From the NCBI RefSeq assembly GCF_000203815.1, contig NW_004457695.1, positions 2,912,054 through 2,976,053 of the forward strand: DNA of 64,000 bases. The letters run 5' to 3'. The notes beneath the pieces were generated by a model that was not told where the DNA came from, did not search any database, and saw only the letters and a program-made list of their open reading frames with translations. This document shows positions 9,478 through 14,589 of the stretch, piece after piece. The stretch is from Cavenderia fasciculata. Taxonomy: Eukaryota; Evosea; Eumycetozoa; Acytosteliales; Cavenderiaceae. Position 1 is the stretch's first letter. Every line of letters starts with the position of its first letter. The position numbers and the translations under genes are program-made.

Positions 9478-12400
9478 TTAATTTGTCTTTCCATATCTTG
9501 ACGGACGGTGACCATTTTTCCAAACTTTAAAAATACCAAGTAGCAGCATATTACGTGCTGCATTAACATCCCGGTTGAAACTTTTTCCACAACCAGTGCA
9601 CAAAACACGTTTCCAGGACACAGCCATTCTGTGCTTGTTGTGTAGGGACTTACTTGCTTTTCTAATCTCTGGACCATATTTATTCTGTCCGTGTCGATAG
9701 TCGAACTTTTTTGTTGATGACGAAGACGATTGGGTCGAGGCAACTTTTTGAGAGTCCTGACGCGATTCAGTCTCCGAACCGGCAACATCTGACGGTGTCA
9801 CCTTCCTTGTTCGACATTGACCTGCCACATTCAAAAGATTGTGTGATTGGAGTTTCTTGTCCAAATCATCGATGGATTTGAGGAACCCCAACGACTCTTT
9901 GTATTCTTTTGAATGGGTGTCTTGCTTGACGAGTGCTAAACGATGCCGGTGGTCACTGCATCGAAGGAAACTATTACCTTTAGCAGCGGATTGACATGCT
10001 TCGCTGATAGGTGAGCACTGTTGGACATTGGTCGGTTGGCCTCCATCCTTTTCTTTACCAAGCTTGAGATGGCATTTCTCCAGATGAAAACCATCCTTTG
10101 GATCCTCATGAGGTTCGTTGAGGTCATGATGGATCAAGTTTTCCTCCTCTTGGTGGAAAAAACAATCAAAATGTTGCTAAAAAGTTTAAAGAGAATTAAT
10201 AAATTTAATTAAATGTTTAAATAAAATGATAATTTTAATTAAGAAACTTACTCTTGACGTGTTGTATTCATTAATATAGACAACGGAATATTGTTTGGAC
10301 TTTAACTTGTTGGCAACAGTCTTGGCTGCAAATGTTGTTACCTTGCCACGAGTGTTGTGTCCAAATTTGGCATTTCCAAAAACTATTTTAAAAAAAAAAG
10401 GAAAAGGAAAAAAGGAAAAAAAAAATACATATTAATATATATACACTTTTTAATACATTAATATTCTTTTTGAAAATGATTTATAAATACATACATATGA
10501 TTGTATTGTCTTGAATGTACTGATTCCTTTCAGAATCGTTCATACTTGAATACTTGGTTGGGAAATGATCTTTAAAGAGATCAAGAATGTAGTTGTCAAA
10601 TTGTTGGTAAAACTCTTTGTTCAACTTTTGCTTTTTGAAAGCAAAGTTCCTCTTCCAAGATAGTACGATTGGATCATTGATGGCTTCGAAATAGATATCG
10701 AAATAATCACAATACTTTTCATAATAGTCCAGCCTAGATTGGAATGTTTGAGGGTTAAGGACATTGACTATATATAAATATATAAATAAAAAAATAATGA
10801 ATTAATAATTATTTAATAATTAAAATAAAACAAACAAATATTATAAAATGTATACATACACTTGAGAGATGGTAAACAGGATTCAAAACTTTTGATGGCC
10901 TTTCCCATATGACAAGAGATTTTCTCTAAAAGAAACTTGGTGTTTCTTTTAACCATAAGAGTATCCATTCTCATGTCCAGAACCTTGTCATCGTGATTGT
11001 TAACGACAGTAATTGAGCACGTGTTGGGATCGATACCAATGGCAATGACATCCTTCAAAGACTTTCCAGCAAATTCTTTCTCCATTGCAACTTGCTTGTT
11101 GTACAGCTTGTTGGGTTTGTTCCCAGGCTTGTACTTGATTGTTCTAAAAGTCACGGTGGCTGATGCACCATTGGTGGTGACAGACACCTTCTTGTCGAAT
11201 GTTACTGTGACATATGGTAAAGATGATGAAGATGAAGAAGTAGATGGTGTAGTGGTAGTTGAGGTATTTTCATACTTTACTCCTTTGTTTACTATCTCTT
11301 GAAACATTTCTTCTTTCGAAAAAGTTATTGTGCCTTTTGCAAGAAGTGCTCGATTTTTATCATGAGATCCTTTTTTAAAACCATGCAATTTGTTGTGTTG
11401 TTCAATTGCATTCTTTGCCTTTTCTCCAGTTTGCAAAGTAGCAGCTACCCTTGCCACATCTTCATTACCTTTATATTTCATTAATGCCTAAAGAAAGAAA
11501 ATTAGTAATTGAAATAATAATTTGTGAATGTAATAAATATTGAAATACTTACGCTTGCAAATCTATTGTCATTGTTTGTTTTCCTCCTTTCCTCATCCTT
11601 TTGTTTTTCAACATCAGTGGGAGGGGTGGCCGGAAGATACACCCTCTTGGTGTTTGTGAAAAGCCTTGGATCGTATTTGTACAAGCCTGGGAAGAGAGTG
11701 GCGATGGCATAGCTTGGGTTACCCTCGTGATCTTTTTCGACATTGGCCTTTTTTAAACCCAAACATTTCAAAAGGTTATTAGCATGTTCTCTTGTAAACA
11801 TGAATTGGATATCAAATCTATTAAAATGAATAAATAATAGGAATAATAATAAAAGTTAATACATTGATTTATAATTAATAGATACATAAATATATAAATA
11901 TATTTAACCTACCCAAGAGATGGTATAATGGATGAAATATTGATGAGCCCGGGAATAAACACGGTTGGTGTTCGGGTATCGCTAATCTGTTGGAGATCAG
12001 CATTTCTTTTTTCTGCCTCTATTGTGATCTTCTTCAGTTCATCCAACTCGCGGATTCGAATGCTGTCATGTTTCATTCTTTGATTGAATTTACCTTTTGG
12101 GTTGCGTGGTGAAGATGTGTTGGGTGATGAAGATGGTGAGTTTGTCAAATCATCAACTGTCAAAGATGTATTTGGGGACTTTTGCAACTTGATAGAAGCT
12201 TCTCTTCTTTCCTTTATGATAGCTTCCCTTCTTTTGTGAGCATCTTCCTTTTTCTTTTTGATAATATTTTTTCTTCTGCTCACCCGATTGTCATATTTTG
12301 CTTCCTTTTTCTTCTTCTTGTCATCTGATAAGTTGTTATACTCATCAATAACTTGTTGGTTATAACCTATAAATAAATAAATAAATAAAAAAGATTGAAA

Positions 12401-14589
12401 ATAAATTAATATATGAATATTATATTAAATAGGTTTGTTTTTTTTTTTGCTTACCACCAAGGATTTCTATGGTTTTGTAGACACCATCTGATAGATCATA
12501 TGTGACAACACGGTCTGCTTTCTTTTCTTCATCTTCTTCTTCTTCACCTTCTTCATCTTCTTCACCTTCTTCATCTTCTTCACCTTCTTCTTGAACTGGT
12601 TGTTGGTCTTTCTCAGCTCTTTTTAATCTCGTATTAGAAAAATTATAAATAGTATCACGAACCAACTTTTTAACCTTTTTAATTTCTTCTTGGTTCTTTC
12701 CAAGATCCTTTATCTTCCTATCCTTGTAGGTGTTTAACAACTGTTTTAAATGGTTATCTAGAATAAGAAGAAAAAGAAAAAGAAAAAAGAATTAATAATA
12801 GGGAAAATATAAATGATCATAAAACTATATTTATATATTTATATGACATACAAGTTGAAACCATGATATTATTTTTAATGTTGATCACGATCACATTAAC
12901 CCAGTTTTTTGAGTTGTTACAACGGAACTGTCTCAACTTTTGAAGCATTTGAAGCATTTTGGGTCTCTTTTGCATCTCTTTTTCCAAAAATGGAGCAACA
13001 TGTTTCATGAAAAAGCATCTACAAAGAAATAAATTAAAATAAATTAAATTAAATTAAATTAGTCACCAATTTAGACACTACTAACCACCTCTACTATGGT
13101 AATTAAAATAAATTAAAATCTTACAATGAGTAAATTGAATCATTGGATAGATCCTCCACGGTGTCAATACGAGGTACCGGATGTTTACCCATTGCTGAAA
13201 AAATAGCGTCTCCTCCAAGAGCAAAGTATCTTATCATCCATTCAATCGACGTTCTGTCAAATCTAAAAGTGGTGAGATTTTCTTTTAGTTGATCTAAAGA
13301 AAAAAAAAAGAGTTAGTTTTTGATTGATTCATTATCTTTTTTTTTCTTTTTCTTTTTCTTGACTTACTTTCATTAAGCTTGCATTGAGTTTGAAAAAACT
13401 TAACAACAAATGGAACAGGTGTTCCATTTGACTCAAAGCACTTGTTGTTGGTGGCTATTAGATTGAGAAAAGTTGTGGTTTGATTTCCAATAAAATTGGC
13501 CAACTTTCTAATGCTCTGAATTAGTTCGTCGTTTGTTGGTACTGGTGATATTGTTGTTGTTGTTGTTGTTGTTGTTGTTGATTGGTCATCTGTAGTGTCC
13601 ATATTGTTGGACGTTGTTGACGATGACGATGACGATGATGATGATGATGATGATGATGATGATTGGTCATCTGTAATGTCCATAGATTTGAACGTCCAAT
13701 ATGATGATGATGAAGAGTTTGATTTCTTTTTCTTCTTCTTTTTCTTTTGAGTTTCGTTACTCACAATTGTTGAATACTTCATTACGTATGAAGTGTATGA
13801 TAATTGAGAGTCTGGTAACGATTCACCCTCTTTGAAGATGATTGATGGTCGATTGGCGTTTGAAGCCTTGTTCTTTCCAGCAGGCTTCCCAGCCTTTGAC
13901 GTTGGAGCCTTGTTCTTTCCAGCAGGCTTTGACTTTGGTTTGGAAACCGGTGGGTCAACTGAGGAGGAGGAGGAGGAGGAGGAGGAGGAGGAGGAGGAGG
14001 AGGAGGAGGAGGAGGTTGTAGTTGTAGAGATGGTTTGATCATCATCATCAGGATCCATTGGAGTGGTAGATGTAAAAGTGGTCGAGTCGTCCTTTTTGAC
14101 TCTTTTTACTGGTTTCTTCTTCTCCTTTGGTTTTGGTGGTGGTGGTGGTTGATCGAATTCTATTTTTTTCCTCTTGGGAGGCTTCTTTTTGTTGGATGGT
14201 GTTTTTTCAGGTTGATCGGGTTGTGTTGTGTTATCTTCGGGGTCGTAAAGACCCTCGAAGATGTTATTCTTATTACTATTATTATTATTATTATTATTAT
14301 TATTATTATTATTATTATTATTATTATTATTATTATTATTATTATTATTATTATTATTATTATTATTACAACCTAATTTCTCTCGAGGGATGAACAATTT
14401 TAAATTTGTAGAGGTGGTATTATTATTATTATTATTATTATTATTATTATTATTATTATTATTATTATTATTATTATTATTATTATTATTATTATTATTA
14501 TTATTATTATTATTATTATTATTATTATTATTGTTGGTAGTTGTTGAAGATTCAATCTGCATTGAATCTTGATTATTATTACTACTCAT
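9478..14589 (-). CDS. Fanzor: eukaryotic TnpB-like RNA-guided nuclease homologue
   Basis: Ten exons on the minus strand (14589-13368, 13293-13125, 13018-12852, 12757-12455, 12366-11913, 11817-11553, 11487-10860, 10767-10495, 10382-10252, 10176-9478) join in frame throughout to about 1436 residues. The first 400 or so residues are disordered: two long poly-Asn tracts, poly-Ser, Lys/Pro-rich basic patches. A Lys/Glu-rich middle follows. RuvC motif I is IAIGIDPN (Asp near 1013), motif II is VVYINEYNTS (Glu near 1199), and motif III is FNRDVNAARNML (Asp near 1407), preceded by the zinc-finger half CTGCG. These C-terminal motifs are the TnpB/Fanzor signature. Characterised Fanzors are guide-RNA-dependent DNA endonucleases in eukaryotic transposons. 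A long insert of about 185 residues separates motif II from the CTGC finger. It is divergent from a decayed transposase-like gene. Confidence 0.85.
14277..14368 (-). repeat. ATT/AAT trinucleotide run encoding poly-Asn in Fanzor
   Basis: About 30 tandem ATT units on the plus strand, read as AAT (Asn) codons in Fanzor exon 1. With the second run at about 14419-14533 it makes up nearly all of residues 19-104. Almost every Asn codon here is AAT, consistent with recent slippage rather than old protein sequence. Confidence 0.8.
14419..14533 (-). repeat. Second ATT/AAT trinucleotide run in Fanzor exon 1
   Basis: About 38 tandem ATT units, encoding the N-terminal poly-Asn tract after a Thr run. Length is likely to vary between isolates. 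Confidence 0.8.

Follow-up and report, generated by a model that had tools for sequence, protein, structure and literature searches.

The 64,000-nucleotide stretch of Cavenderia fasciculata contig NW_004457695.1 analysed here (hereafter the window) carries a ten-exon Fanzor1 gene on the minus strand at 9478-14589, which very probably encodes an RNA-guided DNA endonuclease and travels as cargo of a Sola2-type cut-and-paste transposon in a dictyostelid-like genome (we place the probability of this sequence-based reading at roughly 0.85). Fanzor nucleases are the eukaryotic cousins of bacterial RNA-guided DNA cutters. Fanzor1/Sola2 elements are as a kind already known (Bao and Jurka 2013, PMC3627910), having been in print since 2013, before RNA guidance of Fanzors was known; the copies described here make this connection testable.

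The Fanzor gene and its product

Spliced in silico, the ten exons give a coding sequence of 4311 nucleotides (nt) and a protein of 1436 residues with a single terminal stop. The nine introns are all GT-AG and 65-112 nt long, and the junctions are based on consensus splice sites and on conservation among copies of the element. Approximately the first third of the protein is of low complexity, with the runs of Asn, Ser and Thr that are typical for dictyostelids. The gene comprises the following segments:

13368..14589, minus strand: exon 1, low-complexity N-terminus; replaced in copies C2a and C14b
13125..13293, minus strand: exon 2, spliced model
12852..13018, minus strand: exon 3, spliced model
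12455..12757, minus strand: exon 4, spliced model
11913..12366, minus strand: exon 5, spliced model
11553..11817, minus strand: exon 6, spliced model
10860..11487, minus strand: exon 7, GIDPN, predicted catalytic Asp codon at 11031-11029
10495..10767, minus strand: exon 8, spliced model
10252..10382, minus strand: exon 9, INEYNTS, predicted catalytic Glu codon at 10269-10267
9478..10176, minus strand: exon 10, H-x2-C and C-x2-C finger halves, RD, PF07282 match

The C-terminus of the protein matches PF07282 (TNB, OrfB zinc ribbon) with E 1.5e-7 and 31.9 bits, above the cut-off of 26.3, although the match is confined to profile positions 38-60 of 60, the second half; exon 10 alone matches the NCBIfam model guided_TnpB at E 2e-4, under that model's cut-off. 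The spacing of the predicted catalytic residues (Asp of GID, Glu of INEYNTS and Asp of RD) follows the published Fanzor1 motif, D-X(125,275)-[TS][TS]-XX-finger-X(5,50)-RD (PMC3627910), with 188 residues from the Asp to TS, 2 from there to the finger and 5 from the finger to RD. Fanzors are distinguished from other TnpBs by an alternative RuvC-II Glu six residues ahead of the finger (PMC10711439), and this residue is present at the same distance in the window protein (E-YNTSRQ-H). A preliminary description, made from the letters of the window, had proposed an in-phase splice of ten exons into about 1436 residues, three RuvC acidic positions with a CTGC finger half, and a Fanzor identity. The gene model proved exact, its frame being open in two further copies as well (C3 and C2a), and the intact gene is confirmed; GID, INEYNTS, CTGC and FNRDVNAARN are all present, and the identity gains support from the profile match and the motif spacing.

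Several results weigh against this assignment, or against that of the element. The spliced C-terminus found no match in NCBIfam, sequence and profile searches of the PDB matched no solved structure to the Fanzor, and a search of viral contigs for relatives returned 177 pattern matches of which 0 were confirmed. In RuvC-I the window family has DPN and not DPG, the form described as nearly exclusive to Fanzors (PMC10711439). The first finger half is H-F-D-C at 10173-10162, placing His-x2-Cys where Cys-x2-Cys would stand, so that His-x2-Cys followed by Cys-x2-Cys takes the place of a strict finger of four Cys ligands, and the two halves lie 187 residues apart. The window copy is furthermore without a clean target duplication (ATTT at the left, AAAT at the right), and the Sola2 label is taken from the published family description (PMC3627910) and not from a transposase profile.

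The unusual finger recurs elsewhere: the His-x2-Cys half is also found at four further Fanzor loci, L039, L040, L041 and L042 (the exon preceding the half of L042 was not seen), and at C2:106501, a diverged copy, ~345 nt of the stretch between the finger halves are missing. An alternative splice site that would supply a Cys-x2-Cys first half was considered and rejected, none being seen near the start of exon 10. As the authors of the motif themselves count the D. fasciculatum families as Fanzor1 (PMC3627910), we read the His as variation within the family rather than as grounds for exclusion. PpFz1 and GtFz1 are likewise Fanzor1 proteins carrying inserted stretches, although most Fz1s are of 600-700 residues (PMC11423790), against 1436 here with a long low-complexity start and the 187 residues between finger halves.

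The element and its ends

A search of the genome (31.0 Mb in 21 contigs; repeat counts are lower bounds) located the terminal Fanzor exon at six loci, plus a diverged seventh. All six end at the base equivalent to window 9316, with differing flanks, and comparison of the ends defines the element:

9320..22206, no strand assigned: whole Sola2-type element with the Fanzor gene, window copy; left end common to six copies, right end from C3, C2a, C2d, C2e and C14m
9316..9319, plus strand: Fanzor-side target-site duplication, ATTT (AAAT outward); the same four bases at 26/27 Fanzor-side ends
9320..9332, plus strand: terminal inverted repeat, Fanzor side, GAGCCTTTATTTC
22194..22206, minus strand: transposase-side terminal inverted repeat, reading GAGCATTTATTTT inward
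22207..22210, plus strand: AAAT past the right end, mismatching the ATTT of the left end
15968..18757, plus strand: the element's own transposase gene, damaged and labelled Sola2-type; a premature stop lies at 16130 and, relative to C2a, a frameshift near 17582

The terminal inverted repeats are short and imperfect; read inward, the right one is GAATATTTATTTT in 15/23 of the right ends that match the pattern without mismatch, and none of the 25 longest pairs (of 36) in an inverted-repeat search connects the two element ends. At C3, C2a, C2d, C2e and C14m, ATTT stands both before the left end and after the right end, giving these copies the AT-rich 4-bp duplication (AWWT) and short terminal repeats of Sola2-type elements. 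The window copy departs from them and, flanked by ATTT at the left and AAAT at the right, may be recombinant. Position 19630, where the C2a match stops, was tried as the right end and rejected, as C2a and other loci show the true terminus.

The transposase gene is read in the opposite direction to the Fanzor gene and linked to it in the window, C18, C2a and C14b. It is damaged or cut short in 4/4 of the copies that could be compared, whence these copies probably depend on transposase supplied from elsewhere: that of C18 has the premature stop of the window and breaks off at 16232, that of C14b breaks off at 17991, and a one-base difference separates window from C2a near 16218; of the two we judge C2a to be the copy out of frame, since the window frame continues to the next splice donor. 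In C3 the region is interrupted by an assembly gap and otherwise represented by diverged pieces only. Pfam returned no match for 16373-17608, and NCBIfam no meaningful match for the C2a transposase open reading frame.

Of published elements, the closest in description are DFa-1, DFa-2 and DFa-3. Four Fanzor1 families are reported from D. fasciculatum, three of them of Sola2 type, with terminal inverted repeats of 12-13 bp and AWWT duplications, the DFa-2 transposase having 888 residues (PMC3627910). The three DFa elements resemble that of the window in joining a Fanzor1 to a transposase, labelled Sola2-type here after the published family, in these repeats and duplications, and in having a common transposase end with differing Fanzor parts; duplication orientation, flank asymmetry, the finger His and a candidate guide RNA do not figure in the available text of PMC3627910. 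We take the window element to be DFa-2 or a near relative, likened by published description and not by sequence.

At least three further Fanzor families adjoin a transposon end of this kind. The second family (C12:422578-433909 and 11 similar loci) has more loci than that of the window, its open stretch being mostly of 348 residues; a further family is found at C4/C3/C18:729k and another at C18:1308k. A single genome holds four or more Fanzor modules, carried by elements with a Sola2-type end in common, and intact as well as decayed copies occur together.

Copies and selection

The near-identical copies of the window family number six, on five contigs (window, C3, C18, C2a, C14b and C21), with 96-99.8% identity, and the Fanzor frame is open in three of them. 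C3 keeps all junctions and the frame (1435 residues) and is 99.8% identical to the window copy over 6.2 kb, in line with the young insertion that the preliminary description had suspected. In C2a, exons 2-10 are preserved together with their junctions, behind a different, open first exon (1351 residues). The frame of C18 is lost in the repeat-rich exon 1 (a net loss of 158 nt, possibly an assembly matter), 41 nt are gone from exon 5 of C14b, and C21 retains the gene from within exon 7 through exon 10. Between type A (window, C18, C3) and type B (C2a, C14b) the sequence differs from ~13921 to 15847, the main blocks on either side being 96-98% identical; this stretch, comprising the Fanzor start and the intergenic sequence, is an exchanged segment that swaps the N-terminus.

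Selection on the nuclease, the other suggestion of the preliminary description, stands in part. A comparison of window and C2a across Fanzor exons 2-10 gives 12 silent changes on 630 silent sites and 9 replacement changes on 2454 replacement sites (dS 0.0193, dN 0.0037, ratio omega 0.19). The bias towards silent change has binomial p 2.4e-4, and this constraint between the two lineages holds. It does not set the Fanzor apart from its partner: the transposase, counted over exon 2 and over exon 1 as far as its frameshift but not over exon 3, shows 4 silent and 7 replacement changes, with omega 0.45 (p 0.25), and the two genes do not differ significantly (Fisher p 0.46).

Target sites in a single orientation

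We read ends at 27 loci on the Fanzor side and 26 on the transposase side; diverged ends are missing from this set because ends were located by pattern or beside Fanzor matches, and L074 has no recognisable end. With L059 (altered end, then CTTG) removed and four GCTC-type ends set apart, 21 right ends remain, and with C18:1308427 set apart, 26 left ends. The Fanzor-side pattern included ATTT; a rerun without it added one end, namely the exception C18:1308427.

These exceptions apart, the four bases read outward are AAAT at 26/26 Fanzor-side ends and ATTT at 20/21 transposase-side ends (one AATT). The next four bases are A/T in 96% on the transposase side versus 62% on the Fanzor side (p 3e-7), and in the 15 elements with a perfect duplication the first 4 nt are A/T in 97% versus 60% (Wilcoxon p 0.0014). 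Control ATTT sites, 1503 on both strands and drawn from the window only, show no asymmetry (72% versus 71%); relative to them the high transposase-side value is significant (0/20,000 draws), the low Fanzor-side value alone is not (p 0.056). The A/T-rich stretch on the transposase side extends over 6-10 bp.

Both ends were read for 18 elements, 11 of which were paired by position and strand with the interior unread (C12, C3:611k, C10, C14:3226k, C17, three on C21, C2:1005k, C4 and C1). The ATTT duplication has a single fixed orientation in 15/18. The exceptions are C1 (ATTT/AATT), C18:1308427-1312566 (reversed, AAAT/AAAT, likewise paired by position and strand only) and the window copy (ATTT/AAAT). 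Four right ends read GCTC and then AAAT: those of the window, C2:1152337, C8:561533 and C18:1312566. Two of these are solitary (C2:1152307-1152337 and C8:561533-561563), sharing only the last ~37 bp and lying beside host-like sequence, with no element match of at least 60 bp and no recognisable element in 3.9 kb upstream.

A candidate guide RNA at the Fanzor-side end

Two stretches between the stop codon and the neighbouring DNA could take part in a guide RNA:

9316..9477, minus strand: 3' untranslated region, candidate scaffold of a guide RNA, in which 9446-9438 can base-pair with the edge of the element
9298..9315, minus strand: flank, would-be guide in the window copy (18 bp, then the piggyBac TTAA), placed after published Fanzor1 RNAs

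Folded in silico, the strand between the stop codon and 9316 is predicted to pair AUUUGGGCU, just past the stop, with the edge GGCUCAAAU, which contains the duplication. The fold has z -2.5, with 6/200 shuffles equally good; the edge helix is absent from the best folds of C2x, of the second family (C12) and of two copies of the third family, and for that reason we regard it as no more than suggestive. Two derivatives shortened by deletion, C2d (0.4 kb) and C2e (1.3 kb), retain the 3' untranslated stretch.

Tested Fanzors offer the nearest parallels. SpuFz1 of Spizellomyces punctatus is a Fanzor1 in a DNA transposon, Spu-1, whose RNA starts at the stop codon, extends as far as the edge of the element and takes its guide from the flank; Spu-1 too has conserved bases past the other end, and deleted copies that retain the RNA end (PMC10432273). 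It differs in being bench-tested and in having a single open reading frame, a 2.1-kb locus and 30-nt inverted repeats, with no linked transposase in the available text (PMC10432273). In the SfAV Fanzor1, as in other published Fanzor1s, the terminal inverted repeat and duplication are predicted to lie within the scaffold and the RNA extends ~15 nt past the duplication (PMC10711439); RNA was sequenced there and is predicted here.

By analogy with these systems, the scaffold would reach from the 3' untranslated region to the element edge, target duplication included, and the first ~15 nt of flanking DNA would serve as guide. The Fanzor protein would then cut the matching empty site beside a motif made of the transposase-side flank and AAAT, and repair from a copy still bearing the element would restore the element at the cut. 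In Spu-1 a dinucleotide conserved past one end belongs to the tested motif (PMC10432273), and on that analogy the motif here would be A/T-rich sequence followed by AAAT.

Weighing the alternatives

The one-way target pattern fits a guide RNA running up to the edge of the element, the target motif then lying on the opposite flank. An asymmetric transposase with unlike ends would leave an identical trace, and we hold this likelier than the guide-RNA account: probably, the polarity is a property of the transposase alone, whose two unlike ends always meet the A/T run and AAAT alike, with the Fanzor uninvolved. The length of the A/T-rich stretch, which exceeds the 3-4 nt of published Fanzor1 target motifs, argues for the transposase, as does the reversed C18 element, where orientation accompanies an altered right end (GCTC for ATTC), and so do the right ends at C1:603879, C1:1539308 and C3:23540, which also read ATTT with no Fanzor exon beside them among the matches listed. 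Against it stand the ability of the duplication to pair inside the RNA predicted for the window family, and the precedent of Spu-1, where bases conserved beyond one end form part of the tested motif (PMC10432273), so that a Fanzor can leave such a mark. We propose only tentatively that copies survive in one orientation because only then would a guide RNA with AAAT in its scaffold aim at the empty site; the predicted motif would be 5'-(A/T)n-AAAT, and the His-Cys3 finger would mark a dictyostelid branch of Fanzors. If the nuclease shapes copy survival, the target pattern shows this and predicts the motif; if it does not, the pattern shows a transposase inserting with fixed polarity.

Two further alternatives concern the gene itself. 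That the Fanzor is a passive passenger, kept unbroken through the youth of the copies and without a present nuclease role, would agree with their 96-99.8% identity, with the three of six copies lacking the frame or most of the gene, and with an omega not significantly different from that of the transposase; it is unlikely in view of the excess of silent changes and of the junctions and frame retained in two lineages. A domesticated single-copy host gene might be read from ten exons and an open frame, and is contradicted by six near-identical copies on five contigs with an identical end base and different flanks, leaving it a negligible prospect.

Neighbouring repeats and a further Fanzor

The preliminary description had placed two damaged transposases beside the Fanzor gene. 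One, at 15968-18757, lies within the Fanzor's own element; the other is a piggyBac-type transposase on the minus strand (from below 6059 to 9297; PF13843, E 1.2e-25) and belongs to a separate repeat with its own TTAA end at 9294-9297, 18 bp from the Fanzor element. PiggyBac was considered as the carrier of the Fanzor and rejected, since it ends at this TTAA, outside 9316. Five other near-identical piggyBac loci are present, and fragments of piggyBac and Fanzor are likewise joined at C7.

Locus L039 (C14:3231600-3233500) is a fifth, distinct Fanzor, not tied to an element and 37% identical to that of the window over the C-terminal half; it combines DPG with the H-F-D-C finger half also seen in the window protein. 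Within the window element, 19631-21289 is absent from C16, replaced in C2a and variable between copies, with parts recurring at C14:1467k and C3, and is possibly a nested insertion.

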